64,000 nt of DNA from positions 1,407,001-1,471,000 of the forward strand of contig JAGYJG010000001.1 in NCBI GenBank assembly GCA_018402155.1, read 5' to 3'. The notes under the pieces are model-generated. The model saw nothing but the letters and a program-made list of their open reading frames with translations, was not told where the DNA came from and searched no databases. A program made the translations under genes and the position numbers. Source of the stretch: Bacteroidia bacterium. GTDB lineage: Bacteria > Bacteroidota > Bacteroidia > NS11-12g > UBA9320. Position 1 is the stretch's first letter. Each line of letters begins with the position of its first letter. This document shows, piece by piece, positions 55,468 to 63,775 of this stretch.

Positions 55468-56712
55468 TTAGTCAAATGCAGCTAATGTTTCTGATTTGTA
55501 CTCCCCAGCTGCCAGCTTTCCTTTTATATCTTGAAAAGCCTTGATGGTAACGCCAACATCCTCTAGTGTATGAGCAGCAGTAGGAATGAGTCGTAGCATA
55601 ATGACATCCTTGGGCACTACTGGGTAGACTACTATAGAACAAAAAATATTGAAATTTTCTCTCAAATCGCGGGTGAGGTGAGTCGCCTCAGCCACATCTC
55701 CCTTGAGTATCACCGGAGTGACGCATGAGCTAGTTGTACCTATATTGAAACCCTCGGCTTTTAGTCCATCTTGTAGGGCATTCACAATTTTCCAAAGATT
55801 TTTTTTGTGCTGTGGCTCGTTTCGAAGCATGTCCAATCTTTTTAGCGCACCTATCACAAAAGTCATAGGCAAGGATTTAGCAAAAATCTGTGAGCGCATA
55901 CTGTAGCGCAGGTAGTTTATGATCATCTTATCTGCAGCGATAAACGCCCCTATACTTGCCATAGATTTGGCAAAAGTAGAAAAGTACACGTCTATATCAT
56001 CTTGTATGCCTTGCTCTACTCCTGCGCCTTCTCCCTTGGGGCCAAGGGTGCCAAAACCGTGCGCATCATCAACCAATAATCTAAAGTTGTAAAGCGATTT
56101 TAACGCCGCTATTTCTTTAATCTTACCTTGATTTCCACTCATTCCAAACACTCCTTCGGTAATGACAAGAATAGCCCCACCTTGCTCTTTAGCCATTTTA
56201 GTGGCTCGTTTCAGTTGCACCTCCAGATTTTCTATGTCATTGTGTGCAAAGACATACCGTTTACCTTGGTGCAATCGCACACCGTCTATGATACACGCAT
56301 GCGATTCGGCATCGTACACAATGACGTCCCTTCTGTCTACCAAAGCATCTATGGCAGAAAGAATGCCTTGGTACCCAAAATTCAGAAGAATAGCATCTTC
56401 TTTTTGTTCAAATTCGGCTAGTTGCCGTTCCAATTCTTCGTGATAATCTGTATTTCCCGACATCATTCGTGCGCCCATGGGGTACGCGCAGCCCCAATTG
56501 GCAGCGGCATCTGCATCTGCTTTTCGCACATCGGGATGATTGCCCAATCCAAGGTAATTGTTCAGACTCCAATTGAGCACTGTTTTCCCCCTGAACGTCA
56601 TGTGAGGTGCCAATTCGCCTTCTAGTTTTGGAAACGTGTAATAGTGGTGAGCACCTTCGGAATACTGCCCAAGCGGACTCTTTCTCTTCGCTATTTTTTC
56701 AAATAAATCCAT
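55468..56712 (-). CDS. Alpha-oxoamine synthase, probable serine palmitoyltransferase
   Basis: 414 residues from the ATG at 56712; the ATG at 56736 adds eight residues. A PLP fold-type I enzyme of the KBL/AONS/SPT group: His138 (cofactor stacking, 'DAESHACIIDG'), D-D-A-H (215-218) and Schiff-base Lys249 in 'STFAKSMAS'. It condenses an amino acid with an acyl-CoA, losing CO2. Bacteroidota typically use such an enzyme (serine plus palmitoyl-CoA to 3-ketosphinganine) to make sphingolipids. Glycine C-acetyltransferase or 8-amino-7-oxononanoate synthase are alternatives; no threonine or biotin genes lie nearby. Confidence 0.75.
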   Translation of the reverse strand: MDLFEKIAKRKSPLGQYSEGAHHYYTFPKLEGELAPHMTFRGKTVLNWSLNNYLGLGNHPDVRKADADAAANWGCAYPMGARMMSGNTDYHEELERQLAEFEQKEDAILLNFGYQGILSAIDALVDRRDVIVYDAESHACIIDGVRLHQGKRYVFAHNDIENLEVQLKRATKMAKEQGGAILVITEGVFGMSGNQGKIKEIAALKSLYNFRLLVDDAHGFGTLGPKGEGAGVEQGIQDDIDVYFSTFAKSMASIGAFIAADKMIINYLRYSMRSQIFAKSLPMTFVIGALKRLDMLRNEPQHKKNLWKIVNALQDGLKAEGFNIGTTSSCVTPVILKGDVAEATHLTRDLRENFNIFCSIVVYPVVPKDVIMLRLIPTAAHTLEDVGVTIKAFQDIKGKLAAGEYKSETLAAFD

Positions 56713-56788
56713 TGTTTTATATCGAATAAGGCGCAAAAATATGCATATTTAACAACAATAACACCGAGCAAATAAAATATACCTTCAC

Positions 56789-56819
56789 TTGCATTTATAG
56801 AATATTTAGCTTAATTTTG
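56789..56819 (+). promoter_or_regulatory. Promoter of the phase-variable beta-helix gene
   Basis: TTG (56789-56791), 20-bp spacer, TAATTTTG (56812-56819), both fitting the Bacteroidota consensus. Transcription would begin near 56826, 17 bp before the ATG at 56843. Confidence 0.75.
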
Positions 56820-56848
56820 ACATTCAACAATCTAAATATACCATGAAA

Positions 56849-56880
56849 TCAGCAAATCAGCAAATCAGCAAATCAGCAAA
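56849..56880 (+). repeat. 8-bp tandem repeat (TCAGCAAA)x4 inside the signal-peptide region
   Basis: Four perfect copies directly after ATG AAA (56843-56848). Eight is not a multiple of three, so each change in copy number shifts the frame. With four copies the ATG frame ends at TAA (56900-56902) after 19 codons. Confidence 0.95.
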
Positions 56881-56910
56881 TCCCCTTGGGTTTGTAAACT
56901 AACCATTTTT

Positions 56911-59199
56911 TTGGTCTTCGCTTCTCTTATGACTACATCCCACTATTCTTTTTCACAGTCTGCCCCTGTTTTGGCAGCCGAAAGCGGAGAAGTAGCCGTT
57001 TTAGGATGCTCAAACATTATCGTGATGAACAGTTCTGTATCAAATTCTAACAGTATAGAATGGTGGTACGATGCAGATAATAACCCAGCAACACCCGATG
57101 TGCAAGTGCAAATAGGTGGTACTTCTTTGTTGCCGCCTCAGCAAGGATTTTACTATGTCAAATTTCCATGGCATACTGATAATAGCAACTCTATAGAGTC
57201 TGTGTCATTTACACCCCTGACACTGAATTCAGAATATCTATCCCCAAACAACAAGCTAACTCCCTCCTTGATAAATCCTAACCCCCAAGCTCCTTGGGTG
57301 GGGGCCCCTTACTGTAAAATAGAACCAAACTACACGCCAGGGGTAGAGTATAGCCAACATCTTTGGACCCGAGATCAAGACATATATTCATCGGCAATAG
57401 TACTCGAAAAGGTGCGTAGATCTGGAGATTATGCACTCACAGTAAACGGCCCTTGTGGTGTAGAATCTCCCACAGAAAACGTTCCTTATGAGTGCGACAA
57501 TGCTATTCTCAGCTCATCGGTATACGGGTATAACACTACTTTTATCAATGGTGGGTCGATTAATAACAATACCATTCTTGGATCTGACTGCATTTTTGGA
57601 GGAACCGTAACAATAGTAGGCTCTATCGTTCTAAACGCGCATTACAAAATGGAACAAGATGCCATGATTTATGTGCCCTCTGGCTCAACACTGAGTTTAG
57701 ACGGCTCTATATTCAACTCTTGCGGTACGTGGAAAGGCATAGTGGTTGATGGGGGACAATTGAACTTCACGGGTGCTCCTCCGGTGCAGCTAGCTCATAT
57801 CTACGATGCTGAAGTGGCAATTACGGAACTAAACTCGCCGTCCAATTTTATTGTGCGAAATGCCGTGTTTGAAGGTAATGGGGTACACATCGCTTCTTCA
57901 AATTCAAATTATGGGATAGAAAAATGTACCTTTAATTCTTTGGCAGCTATTCCTAATCAAAACGCTTATGCAAGTTTTCTAACTAATAAACAAACCGACA
58001 ACCCCATGATATATGCAGAATATACATCCCTTTCAGCGATAATTGATTGTACCTTCGACCAAAGAGATGATAATACCTTCGGCTCTCCAAATACTACTAC
58101 TGCCATAGAATTAAACAATACTACACTCAACGCCAATGGATACATCCACGTGTATGACAATTTTTTGTACGGTATACACGCTACCAATAGTCCGGGGGTG
58201 TATATTAAAGCACTCCGTTTTGGAAGCCCATTTATTTCTAGCTTAGTAGACTACCACTACAATCAGCCCTTTTCTAACCACGGTGTTTACCTAAAAAATT
58301 GTAAGAGTGCTCTCATTGGTAAGGCAACATTACGCCCATCAGAAACAGGAATTCAGTGGTACCTTAATGAAGATCTAAATCCACAGCAATTAGCCACAAA
58401 TTTTAACGAAATAGACATTTATCACGTTGGTGTGGGTAACGATAGAGCCGGAATAATAATTGCCCCAGATGTGAATCCACTGACCAATTCAAACCCTGGC
58501 CTAAATGCATCTACCACTCCGCTCAAAGTAGATATTAGCTGTAGCAAAATAGAAAACTGCGACTATGGTATAATAGGTAGCGGTAAAAAAACAGATTGGG
58601 TGATGAAACAGCAATGGCTTACGGGAAACTACGGAGAGTACGACCCCTCCATTGAATTTGTAAACAACGTGCACTGGAACATCCTCTGGAGTGAAAATTT
58701 GAACTGGGATAATACTCCAAATATAGGCATACCCCCAATGAAATACTATTATTCGAATACATACGCTACCCCCCTTTACTCTGCTAACTCTGCTAACAGT
58801 ACAAGGCATACTCCTCTGCTAGATGGTACGCTAATTTATTATAATAATAAGGGAAATCAAGAAAGTCCGTTTGAGGATACCCTCAGTATGAATGGTCCAT
58901 TTTGCACCCCCTCCAATCGGGTATTTTATAAAAAAGACGTGGCAAGTGCCCCTACTAAAGTGCCTGAAGATAAAAAACAGCTGTACCCCAATCCTTTTAC
59001 CCACTCCCTATACATAGACCTAGGAGAAGACGAAAAAGCAGAAGTTGTGGTGTACAATACCCTCGGCAAGAAAATAACAGAAAACCTAAATGCTACGGGT
59101 CTCGTATATTTTAATACCCAAAATTGGAATTCAGGCATCTACTTTGTCACACTAACGTCCACTCGTGGGTCTAGTAGCTACAAAGTGATAAAGCAATAA
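56911..59199 (+). CDS. Beta-helix T9SS surface protein, phase-variable, apparently OFF
   Basis: The main frame is open from 56836; TTG 56911 is only the first formal start. With three or six repeat copies, ATG 56843 would run in frame and give M-K-S-A-N-Q-Q-I-S-K-S-P-W-V-C-K, a hydrophobic core (T-I-F-L-V-F-A-S-L-M) and a cleavage site near S-F-S-Q: a good signal peptide. The mature part (~750 residues) has an N-terminal Ig-like region, a beta-helix-like region (~190-480, 'STLSLDGSIFNSCGTWKGIVV') and a type A T9SS domain (L-Y-P-N-P-F-T ... G-I-Y-F-V-T-L). It resembles the beta-helix regions at 6743 and 20728 and is probably a surface adhesin. Its stop lies 7 bp before the next gene. Confidence 0.75.
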   Translation: MVFASLMTTSHYSFSQSAPVLAAESGEVAVLGCSNIIVMNSSVSNSNSIEWWYDADNNPATPDVQVQIGGTSLLPPQQGFYYVKFPWHTDNSNSIESVSFTPLTLNSEYLSPNNKLTPSLINPNPQAPWVGAPYCKIEPNYTPGVEYSQHLWTRDQDIYSSAIVLEKVRRSGDYALTVNGPCGVESPTENVPYECDNAILSSSVYGYNTTFINGGSINNNTILGSDCIFGGTVTIVGSIVLNAHYKMEQDAMIYVPSGSTLSLDGSIFNSCGTWKGIVVDGGQLNFTGAPPVQLAHIYDAEVAITELNSPSNFIVRNAVFEGNGVHIASSNSNYGIEKCTFNSLAAIPNQNAYASFLTNKQTDNPMIYAEYTSLSAIIDCTFDQRDDNTFGSPNTTTAIELNNTTLNANGYIHVYDNFLYGIHATNSPGVYIKALRFGSPFISSLVDYHYNQPFSNHGVYLKNCKSALIGKATLRPSETGIQWYLNEDLNPQQLATNFNEIDIYHVGVGNDRAGIIIAPDVNPLTNSNPGLNASTTPLKVDISCSKIENCDYGIIGSGKKTDWVMKQQWLTGNYGEYDPSIEFVNNVHWNILWSENLNWDNTPNIGIPPMKYYYSNTYATPLYSANSANSTRHTPLLDGTLIYYNNKGNQESPFEDTLSMNGPFCTPSNRVFYKKDVASAPTKVPEDKKQLYPNPFTHSLYIDLGEDEKAEVVVYNTLGKKITENLNATGLVYFNTQNWNSGIYFVTLTSTRGSSSYKVIKQ

Positions 59200-59206
59200 C
59201 TACTTT

Positions 59207-62200
59207 ATGAAAAAATGGCTAACCATACTGCTATTTTTGGTATTGCCTTGCTGCGCTATTTTTGCACAGCAAGGCAACACTGTTTTGGTAGGAACTGGGT
59301 TGATACTTCAGTTTGATGGTGATAGTTTACGCATAGATACCCTGCGTTCTTTCCAATATAATCGGGCTAATTCTTATTTTTTAGGTGGCAATCACCTTAC
59401 CGACTGCCAAGGCAGCACCATCGGATTTCACCGTCGCTCTTTGAGAGACGACAGCTTGCCGATAATAAAATATAGAGACCGATATTATGATGAAATTTAC
59501 AGCCAATGTGGCACTGGTCGTTTTGGAGACTATTCAGAGTTTATCTCCCCACTGGAATTCGATAAAACAATCTTTATTACCGCTGACCGCACATATGGGG
59601 GTAATCAGTGGACCCATGAGTATACCTTTTTGTACAACAAACGTTTTTTGAGAAACGACAGTATGCTCTGGGATACCATTTCCTGTACGGGTATTAGTGA
59701 CACATTTTTCACATCGCGTATCGACTCCGAATCCATACGGCTAGAAAACGCTATCTGGCACGTAACGGCACATGGAGGAAACTCGATATTCGCTTTCCAC
59801 ATAGACCGAGAAGGTATAAAAACCCTTAAGCGCAGTCTCAAAAAACCCACAACTTTGAGTAATTTTGGATCTTCAATATACCATAACGTCTTAAAAGCGA
59901 GCAACGACGGCAACCACCTGGCCCTGGTAGAAGACAATGGGCTATACACCTTTAGTCTCTACGATTTTGACAAAAACACGGGAGCAGCCACCTATAGCAA
60001 ACCGCTCCTTACCAAGGCGCAACTGCCTAGTTACTCTTGGTGTCTTGACAGCTATGGAGCAAGGCCTGCCATAGACGGTATAGCATTCTCCCCCAACGAT
60101 TCGCTCATCTATGTAGCCTACAACTACTGGCCCATCTGCACCGAAGGTAGTAAGATGGTGCGTATCATTTACCAGATAGATCGGTATCACCCCAATCCGC
60201 CCAGCACTGCCAACGTGGTGTATAGTAAATTTTACAATAATATACAATCGAACCAACGACATACGATGATGTTTACCGCGCCCAATGGCATCATCTACTG
60301 GGGCCAACCCGGTGACTCTGCAATACACTCTATATCACAAGCCAACACCTACCGAGGAGCGATACATCACCTCAATACTATCAGTGTTTCGGGACACTAC
60401 AATGCTACTTCATTAGACCTATCTACTAGCGCCTACCTGCGAGCCGATTTTGATATATGGGCAAGCTGTGAAGATAGCGCCACTGCCATATTTTATGGCA
60501 ACGAATTTTTGCCCAAGGTGACGTACCATTGGGGAGATGGCGACAGCACGGTGTACGATAGCGGTAGCCTTACCAATAAACAATACATAAACCACCGCTA
60601 CGATAGCACCGGCACCTATACAGTAATACAAAAAGCCCTATTAAATACCTGTGACTATGCTCAGACAAAGACCAAGGTGGTGGATGTCACTATACCACCC
60701 CAAAGCACTGCATTTAGCTTATCCGTAGACACCGGCTGCACCCATAGCACACTCACTATAACAGATACCGTAAGCCACACAGATAGTATATATGTAGACT
60801 GGGGAGATGGTACCATAGACACTATACGAACAGGTCATACGCGCATAACTGCTGTTATTATTTCACACTCCTACACCACATCAGACACTTTTGATATAGC
60901 CTATAGGCTGATAGGCCACGGTATACCTCAAAAAAATAAAAGCGGGTGTCGCTACAGCGCAGACACCAGCTTACACGTGGTATTACGGCCCAGGCCTACC
61001 CCACAATATCGTTACACTACTACAGGTACGAGTACGCCAATAGCCTTGCAAGACACCACTTTGGCATGCTCTGGAGAACCATTGATAGTATCACAGCAAA
61101 ACGATAGCCTGATAAGCTTCCTTGGTACACTGGCAAACGATACCGTGTATGCAGATACTGATAGCATTATTTATACCCTAAAAGGAGGTTGGTACACTAC
61201 AGTACTTGCGGCTACCACTGCACATGGCTGCACAGTGCAAGACACCATAGAAATAGGCATAGCGCAAACCACACAAGTGACGTGGAGTACTGACTCAGTA
61301 TTTTGTAAAAATCGGCCGGCAGCTACACAAGTCAATGTGGTGAAAGGGCTAGGCTCTTTAGACCAAATCAACAGTAATCTGTTATACACACGGCACGGAG
61401 ATACCTCCCTAACATTATTTCACCCGGCCGCCACTAGCGGAGAATATATAGCGCAAGTCGTTATACATACCGATGTAGGGTGTAGGGATACTTTTAGCAA
61501 AAAAATGAGGGTATCTGAGTTTCCCGATATATCCATAAAAGGTGACAGTGTAGGCTGCATAAACCATCGAATTGAATTTGACCCAAAAACAGAAAGTGAT
61601 GATAGCATCGCCATACAATGGTACGTCAACAGTCTTTTGGCACGCCGTACTGATTTCCGCATTTCTGGTACGCACATGCCTTACGAATTGGTGCCTAGTG
61701 TCGCCGGAACTAGCACCATTGTAGCAGAAGTGTCTACCCCGTTTGGCTGTATATCCACAGACACACTGCAAGTAGCTATCATACCTCCGCCACAAGTGAT
61801 TTTAGGTAAAGCGGACGATACCCTTTGCCATAATCAACAACCCTATCACCTAACAGCAAATTTGACCTTGTCTAACCATAGTAAGGTCTACACCTTTTGG
61901 GGAGACAATCTACAAGATAGCAATACTGCAGAGCGAAATATAGACACCATTTTGCAGCATACATACACATCATCTGGCTCCTATACACTACAGAGTATAC
62001 TAGCATACAACTACCCCGTTTGTGCAGACACTGCTACGAGCAAAGTAACCATTCTCGCCCCTCCTAGTGTTACCCTTCAAGCGCTAGACCTCTGTACCAA
62101 CGAGAAAGGGGAAGCAAGACTACATTGGCAATCAGACACCCCACTATCATGGCTCAAAGTGTACAACAATAACACCCAGATAGAAACATACAGCGAACTA

Positions 62201-62839
62201 CCAAAAAGTGGCAGCATAACCCAAGAATATCTAGCTGGGTTGCAGACCAATATACTACTTGCAAGGGCTAGAGACACACTAGGCTGTACAGCCAGCAGCA
62301 CCCAGCAATATAGAACAGTAGAAAAACCTGTGGCCACCTTTGATGCTGCCTACCTCAGGACTGACGATTTAGCGGTCACCTATATGTTTACTGATAAATC
62401 TCAGAACCACAGCACCTCCTTACTCATTTATGGCGATGGCATATCAGAGACACTAGTACCATTTTTTGAGCAGAGACATACCTACACCGACACGGGGGGG
62501 TATACCGCTACGCTTGTAGTTTCAAATGAAAATATATGTGCAGATACCGCCCAACTTACGGTCTGGGCACAGCCCTCTATCACGTTTTATGTACCTACAA
62601 GCATCACACCAAATGGTGACCAGCTCAATGATTATTTGCATTTTGATACTAGGCTAGTGAAGGCACTAAACGTGCGCATATACAACAGATGGGGAGCAAA
62701 AGTAATGACGATAACCAACCCCGAACAGCTAGAAAAAACCAGAGAATTGCCTGCCAGCGTGTACCTTGTGCGTTTTTCGATTACCGATATTTATGGAAAA
62801 ACCCATCGCGGCCAACAAACCCTCACCGTGCTGCGATAG
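59207..62839 (+). CDS. Large PKD-domain surface protein with gliding-type (type B) T9SS domain
   Basis: 1,210 residues; signal peptide ends A-I-F-A-Q (~21). Residues 25-410 look like a propeller ('SFSLYDFDKNTGAATYSKPL', 'GIAFSPNDSLIYVAYNYWP'). From ~425 there are several PKD/Ig-like repeats with W-G-D-G cores ('YHWGDGDSTVYDSG', 'YVDWGDGTIDTIRTG', 'YGDGISETLVPFFEQRHTYTDTGGY'). The last ~90 residues carry the type B sorting motif: 'PTSITPNGDQLNDYLHF', then 'IYNRWGAKVM', then 'YLVRFSITDIYGKTHRGQQT'. Type B domains also occur in gliding adhesins such as SprB. A run of seven G (62494-62500) lies in the C-terminal PKD repeat. It is likely co-transcribed with 56911. Confidence 0.85.
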   Translation: MKKWLTILLFLVLPCCAIFAQQGNTVLVGTGLILQFDGDSLRIDTLRSFQYNRANSYFLGGNHLTDCQGSTIGFHRRSLRDDSLPIIKYRDRYYDEIYSQCGTGRFGDYSEFISPLEFDKTIFITADRTYGGNQWTHEYTFLYNKRFLRNDSMLWDTISCTGISDTFFTSRIDSESIRLENAIWHVTAHGGNSIFAFHIDREGIKTLKRSLKKPTTLSNFGSSIYHNVLKASNDGNHLALVEDNGLYTFSLYDFDKNTGAATYSKPLLTKAQLPSYSWCLDSYGARPAIDGIAFSPNDSLIYVAYNYWPICTEGSKMVRIIYQIDRYHPNPPSTANVVYSKFYNNIQSNQRHTMMFTAPNGIIYWGQPGDSAIHSISQANTYRGAIHHLNTISVSGHYNATSLDLSTSAYLRADFDIWASCEDSATAIFYGNEFLPKVTYHWGDGDSTVYDSGSLTNKQYINHRYDSTGTYTVIQKALLNTCDYAQTKTKVVDVTIPPQSTAFSLSVDTGCTHSTLTITDTVSHTDSIYVDWGDGTIDTIRTGHTRITAVIISHSYTTSDTFDIAYRLIGHGIPQKNKSGCRYSADTSLHVVLRPRPTPQYRYTTTGTSTPIALQDTTLACSGEPLIVSQQNDSLISFLGTLANDTVYADTDSIIYTLKGGWYTTVLAATTAHGCTVQDTIEIGIAQTTQVTWSTDSVFCKNRPAATQVNVVKGLGSLDQINSNLLYTRHGDTSLTLFHPAATSGEYIAQVVIHTDVGCRDTFSKKMRVSEFPDISIKGDSVGCINHRIEFDPKTESDDSIAIQWYVNSLLARRTDFRISGTHMPYELVPSVAGTSTIVAEVSTPFGCISTDTLQVAIIPPPQVILGKADDTLCHNQQPYHLTANLTLSNHSKVYTFWGDNLQDSNTAERNIDTILQHTYTSSGSYTLQSILAYNYPVCADTATSKVTILAPPSVTLQALDLCTNEKGEARLHWQSDTPLSWLKVYNNNTQIETYSELPKSGSITQEYLAGLQTNILLARARDTLGCTASSTQQYRTVEKPVATFDAAYLRTDDLAVTYMFTDKSQNHSTSLLIYGDGISETLVPFFEQRHTYTDTGGYTATLVVSNENICADTAQLTVWAQPSITFYVPTSITPNGDQLNDYLHFDTRLVKALNVRIYNRWGAKVMTITNPEQLEKTRELPASVYLVRFSITDIYGKTHRGQQTLTVLR

Positions 62840-62948
62840 AGCAGCAGGATGCAGCGGCAAAAAACAAGCAGACAGGAGTAAGTTTGTCTATTATTTGTGT
62901 TAAATGGTAACATCCGCACTAATTTTACGTACATTATCTAAAAAATCA

Positions 62949-62956
62949 TACCTTTG
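62949..62956 (+). promoter_or_regulatory. -7 box of the bamD promoter
   Basis: TACCTTTG is a perfect TAnnTTTG box. The -33 side is weak (TTTTAC about 22 bp upstream). Transcription would start only about 6 bases before the GTG at 62969. Confidence 0.6.
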
Positions 62957-62968
62957 TAAGCATTTTCA

Positions 62969-63775
62969 GTGAAAAATATCATATACATCGTACTAGCATT
63001 CAGTCTTTTTTCGTGCTCTGGCTACCAGAAGCTGGTGAAAGACGGTACTCCTGTGGAAAAACTAGAGGCTGCCACAAAGTACTATAAATCGAAAGATTAT
63101 GTGCGAGCACAGATGTTATTTGAGGAGCTACTAGGGCTGTACTATGGAAAACCGGAGCGTGAAGAGATACAATACATGTATGCCTACGCCTACTATGGTA
63201 CTAGTGAATATTTGCTTGCTGGCTATTACTTCAACTCATTTGCCCAGACCTATGCCAATAGCCCAAAAGCAGAAGAAGCCAGCTATATGGCTGCAGTGTG
63301 CAAATATAAAAAAGCAATGCCGGTAGAGCTAGATCAAGAGCCCACAAGCGCGGCAATATCGAGTTTACAATCTTTTATAAACCAGTATCCTAACAGCAAA
63401 TATGTTGCAGAGTGCAATGATAAAATAGACCAATTGCGTGCACGAATACTCGCTAAAGTATATGAAAATGCCAAATTGTACCATAGCTTGGGCTACTACA
63501 AGAGTGCTATGGTAGCGTGTGAAAATGCACTATCAGACTACCCTGACATGGTACATAGAGACGAGCTACATTACCTAATGGCAGATGCCGCTTTCTTGTA
63601 TGCCAAGAACAGCATTGCAAAAAAACAAGCTGAACGCTATGAGGATGCGGTATCAAAAGCAACCGAGTACCTATCCGAATTTGGACCATCGTCTGAATAT
63701 CAGTCTATGGTACGCAAAATAATTAATAAAAGTACATCAGCAATTACTGAATTAAAAACCATACAACAAGGATAA
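62969..63775 (+). CDS. bamD: Outer-membrane assembly lipoprotein BamD
   Basis: 268 residues, GTG start. Lipoprotein signal ends L-F-S-C (Cys16). The rest consists of TPR-type helical hairpins: 'AATKYYKSKDYVRAQMLFEEL' (~35), 'YMYAYAYYGTSEYLLAGYYF' (~66), 'NAKLYHSLGYYKSAMVACENAL' (~163). Size and order match the BamD/YfiO family, which works with BamA to insert barrel proteins. The omega-like gene follows after one base. The GTG start and the very short predicted leader are unusual. Confidence 0.9.
   Translation: MKNIIYIVLAFSLFSCSGYQKLVKDGTPVEKLEAATKYYKSKDYVRAQMLFEELLGLYYGKPEREEIQYMYAYAYYGTSEYLLAGYYFNSFAQTYANSPKAEEASYMAAVCKYKKAMPVELDQEPTSAAISSLQSFINQYPNSKYVAECNDKIDQLRARILAKVYENAKLYHSLGYYKSAMVACENALSDYPDMVHRDELHYLMADAAFLYAKNSIAKKQAERYEDAVSKATEYLSEFGPSSEYQSMVRKIINKSTSAITELKTIQQG

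Follow-up and report, generated by a model that had tools for sequence, protein, structure and literature searches.

An octanucleotide repeat behind the start codon of a T9SS cargo gene: a candidate phase-variable locus, assembled OFF, in an uncultured Bacteroidota lineage

Directly after the ATG at position 56843 of the window (the whole 64,000-nucleotide stretch of DNA that was analysed) lie four perfect tandem copies of an octamer and a partial fifth, and this array puts the start codon out of frame with an otherwise intact gene for a T9SS surface protein. Judged from its sequence, the arrangement is on balance probably a slipped-strand translational phase-variation locus of the known SSR kind, assembled here in its OFF state. 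The array can be read directly in the sequence, and TRF reports it with period 8, 4.6 copies and a 100% match, so that four perfect copies after this ATG, as claimed in an earlier note on this DNA, is the correct count; the four copies of TCAGCAAA that can be read from 56849 are the other register of one and the same array. The features of the locus are as follows.

55468 to 56736, reverse strand: gene for a serine palmitoyltransferase-like protein (SPT), which flanks the islet on the left (profile and comparison with relatives).
56789 to 56819, forward strand: putative Bacteroidota-type promoter, TTG at 56789-56791 and -7 box TAATTTTG at 56812-56819 (sequence).
56843 to 56845, forward strand: ATG, the only one placed to provide a signal peptide.
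56843 to 56902, forward strand: 19-codon ORF of the four-copy allele (OFF), with its stop TAA at 56900-56902 (sequence and computed frames).
56846 to 56882, forward strand: perfect tandem array, (AAATCAGC)4 plus AAATC, in codons 2-13, with a unit of 8 that is not divisible by 3 (sequence and TRF).
56881 to 56958, forward strand: main-frame remainder of the signal peptide (SPWVCKLTIFLVFASLMTTSHYSFSQ), with which ATG 56843 is in frame only at 0, 3, 6 ... copies (computed frames).
56911 to 59199, forward strand: main ORF with T9SS type A sorting domain, given a mechanical TTG start (profile matches).
59207 to 62839, forward strand: PKD/CHU_C (T9SS type B-like) protein, probable operon partner (profile matches and gap).
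62949 to 62956, forward strand: BamD's own -7 box TACCTTTG, in the same place as in relatives (comparison with relatives).
62969 to 63775, forward strand: BamD, right flank of the islet (profile and comparison with relatives).

The Bacteroidota -7 box has the consensus TAnnTTTG, and by that consensus we take the element 23 nt upstream of the ATG to be such a box; together with its TTG it bears out the promoter previously proposed at this place. In the four-copy allele translation from ATG 56843 gives only MKSANQQISKSANPLGFVN before the TAA is reached. When the frames were computed for 0 to 9 copies, a long ORF appeared only at 0, 3, 6 and 9 copies (774, 782, 790 and 798 aa, respectively), while 1, 2, 4, 5, 7 or 8 copies gave ORFs of 11-28 aa. 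The earlier note was thus right that four copies end translation after 19 codons, that the loss of one copy or the gain of two restores the frame, and that the ON frame carries a signal peptide of 36 residues, which is MKSANQQISKSPWVCKLTIFLVFASLMTTSHYSFSQ in the three-copy allele. The frame returns with every third unit, which lengthens the n-region of the signal peptide by the residues KSANQQIS. Seven consecutive T at 56906-56912, inside the signal peptide and just 3' of the array, form a possible second slippage site; it is unable to rescue the four-copy frame because the stop precedes it.

With no units at all the product would start MKSPWVCKLTIFLVFASL, and since this gene start, MKSPWVCKLTIFLVFASLMTTSHYSFSQ, looks like an ordinary Bacteroidota signal peptide, ATG 56843 is very probably the real start, with the array inserted behind it. 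The genome has 86 T9SS type A sorting-domain matches, and most of the 85 gene starts inspected have an in-frame ATG and a signal peptide; the array gene as assembled has neither, which argues that the ON frame was very probably the original arrangement. The first in-frame ATG of the main ORF in the four-copy allele falls after the hydrophobic core. If the protein were made in spite of the four copies, through a start or restart of translation at TTG 56911 or through ribosomal frameshifting, the array would be no off-switch; we consider this improbable. That TTG is in frame and only 9 nt past the stop of the short upstream ORF, but a product started there would begin MVFASLMTTSHYSFSQ, which has no charged n-region and is unlike nearly all the other T9SS proteins of this genome, and no slippery heptamer was seen upstream of the stop. 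TTG 56911 is thus unlikely to be the real start of the main ORF. As separate observations, 86 sorting-domain matches is an apparently high load for a 2.49-Mb genome, and two T9SS genes that lie far apart (G000:C1:1611637-1611825 and 1985777-1985965) have an identical N-terminus and the same length of 344 codons, which may reflect a recent duplication or a mobile copy.

The main ORF runs for 762 codons from the mechanical start with its frame intact. Its tail matches TIGR04183 (5.9e-13, residues 691-762) and also Pfam PF18962, as expected of a T9SS type A cargo protein, and the signal peptide that such a protein needs is present in the ON frames only; no Pfam domain besides the sorting-domain tail was recognised. 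The description of the product as a T9SS beta-helix protein therefore stands for the T9SS tail, while the beta-helix is weakly supported, by 24% identity with a single further T9SS protein (in genome G315) and by strand-rich patterns; the predicted fold, at pLDDT 34, is too poor to use. Since the long ORF is intact and the sorting domain complete, the gene is not an old, decayed pseudogene.

Chance fails to account for the array: the base composition of the window predicts 4e-11 perfect period-8 runs as long as this per genome, and about 1e-9 if any period of 4-30 is allowed. We sampled 864 kb of the genome, made up of the window and forty stretches of 20 kb (35% of 2.49 Mb), for perfect arrays with at least 2.8 copies of a 4-30 bp unit and a length of at least 16 bp, and found three, of which the octamer array is the only one above 17 bp; the other two are 17 bp each. 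The doubled octamer AAATCAGCAAATCAGC has a single site in the whole genome, the array itself. No other tandem array longer than 21 bp was found at the 85 of 86 T9SS type A gene starts that were inspected. The position is notable as well, since the sequence less than about 45 bp downstream of start codons makes up only a few percent of a genome (an estimate that assumes about 2,100 genes). In 351 kb from two genomes of the same genus there were only one array with an 18-bp unit, which is divisible by 3, and a short hexamer. A perfect 37-bp array with a frame-breaking unit, alone in the genome sample and directly after an ATG, favours a switch. On the other hand, neither the 864 kb nor the 85 T9SS starts hold a second array of like size, so there is no multi-locus contingency ("phasome") pattern and no sign of a general contingency strategy, and this counts against a switch. 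Repeat tracts are a classic site of assembly and consensus errors, and the true allele might have three copies and be always ON; we consider this very improbable, since reads of any type span 37 bp, and the frames of most other T9SS genes are intact, as are the conserved genes around the locus.

The same octamer occurs elsewhere in the phylum. In a class sample of 295 genomes, arrays of its degenerate form AATYAGCA were found in 8 genomes besides the present one, all outside the order of the array genome, while a reversed control pattern gave none. When the loci of these arrays and of one IMG/VR contig were read, 31 of 32 distinct AATYAGCA matches lay outside ORFs of at least 100 aa. The intergenic, degenerate arrays of distant Bacteroidota include L205, L208, L209, L215, L223 and L236 among others, and one genome (G353) has up to 21 matches. 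The array described here could thus be a member of this intergenic family that was brought in with the islet (below), and be regulatory or neutral DNA and not a frame switch. The recurrence of the octamer in those 8 genomes, against none for the control, speaks for this, as does the viral IMG/VR contig (L207:4458-4484), in which the same octamer is tandem directly upstream of a long ORF's ribosome-binding site and ATG; but those arrays are degenerate and intergenic, whereas the present one is single in its genome, perfect and coding, and we regard this explanation as quite improbable. With those genomes outside the order and no second copy in the present one, a link between the array and the AATYAGCA arrays of distant Bacteroidota is no more than possible.

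Together with the PKD/CHU_C gene, the T9SS gene makes up an islet of about 6 kb (window positions 56740-62900) between the SPT-like gene and BamD. In all seventeen relatives' loci compared, some of which are probably one genome present in two collections, these two flanking genes adjoin each other in divergent orientation, with about 150-200 bp between them. GC3 is 0.39 and 0.45 in the islet genes vs 0.23-0.33 in the window's other T9SS genes, which is consistent with recent acquisition. No homologue of the T9SS islet gene was found in the genus, and no orthologue with another copy number was found among 38 family genomes, 108 order genomes, the 295-genome class sample, genome contigs or IMG/VR; the distant G315 protein has an ordinary start without repeats. 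By these searches of the order genomes and the class sample, the gene is an orphan. A second allele of the array was not found in a comparison that used one genome per species and in which the gene is absent from the relatives.

These findings bear on the main rival to phase variation, namely that a burst of slippage turned a recently acquired, dispensable gene off once and left a young pseudogene with no meaningful switching. The only genome that has the gene is in the OFF state, which is also expected after plain loss of function and counts against a switch. The tract is short and alone in the genome sample, and the absence of the gene from all relatives, with the raised GC3 of the islet, makes it probably recent and dispensable. 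Against this, four identical units after an ATG require several slippage steps by a process that also reverses, and the long frame has stayed intact. We judge a one-off inactivation to be unlikely, though a good deal less so than the other alternatives.

If the locus is phase-variable, the octamer array would be a site of replication slippage, and each unit gained or lost would move the frame by 2 (modulo 3); the T9SS surface protein would accordingly be translated only at 0, 3, 6 or 9 copies. The assembled four-copy genome would be OFF, and it would take one unit fewer or two more to bring expression back; the eight polar residues added to the n-region at each ON step should be tolerated. The PKD/CHU_C gene starts 7 nt past the stop of the T9SS gene and has no obvious promoter, and the short gap makes translational coupling between the two plausible. 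With the T9SS gene OFF, 2.3 kb of mRNA would go without translation and expression of the PKD gene would probably fall too, so that both proteins would probably go on and off together. A polar effect of switching on BamD was considered and rejected, since BamD keeps its own promoter. Slippage would further have to occur at a useful rate, be reversible in the population and alter the cell surface.

SSR-mediated translational phase variation is known from the contingency loci of H. influenzae, Neisseria and Campylobacter. As in those loci, a unit not divisible by 3 lies near the 5' end of the coding region, in a gene for a surface protein, and its copy number sets the frame, with both ON and OFF copy numbers possible; such a repeat in codons 2-13 is standard translational contingency anatomy and favours a switch. 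The repeat is longer than chance allows and exceeds the published in-silico cut-off of 3 copies for units of 6-9 nt (PMC5953494; PMC2651432), and one H. influenzae octanucleotide tract has 1 to 6 copies, varying by strain (PMC2651432). The present locus differs from these contingency loci in its T9SS cargo, its uncultured Bacteroidota lineage, its lone array and its only four copies, and in being known from one allele. The GCATCATC tracts of hmwA in H. influenzae biogroup aegyptius also have an octamer unit and belong to surface adhesin genes, but they are phase-variable, strain-differing tracts of 12-15 copies that lie in the promoter region and act on transcription (PMC3309571; PMC2651432); beside them four copies are few, which counts against a switch. 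The TAACTGA heptamer repeats of Beggiatoaceae, Cyanobacteria and some Bacteroidetes are likewise short tandem repeats near start codons, proposed to be post-transcriptional regulator sites, but they lie upstream of the start codon and are many per genome, unlike the single array after an ATG (PMC4679880). Invertase-mediated phase variation in Bacteroides also switches surface structures of Bacteroidota on and off, but by site-specific inversion and not by repeat slippage. The locus is thus of a known kind, in an unusual gene class and an unusual lineage.

The earlier note had likened the locus to contingency loci of host-associated bacteria, but a host-associated setting is not supported: the nearest named relatives are unclassified Bacteroidia MAGs and isolates with aquatic- or marine-looking names, and we take the nearest named records (SI072_bin56, BS301-5m-G47 and AH-578-I02), from those names, to be water-column samples. 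The lineage is probably not host-associated. Most known repeat-slippage switches come from host-restricted pathogens, and we found no paper in the open library searched that joins T9SS with repeat-based switching. A 2025 review (PMC11868660) lists among the open questions whether multi-locus phase variation is truly confined to pathogens or only seems so through database bias. The full proposal, that octamer slippage at the signal peptide switches a T9SS cargo protein of a probably free-living Bacteroidota lineage, we put forward tentatively, as possible but well short of probable. If it is true, slipped-strand phase variation acts on islet-acquired T9SS surface proteins in bacteria other than host-adapted pathogens, and may make use of an octamer found repeatedly in arrays across Bacteroidota; a confirmed case would extend repeat-slippage switching to T9SS cargo and to uncultured Bacteroidota.
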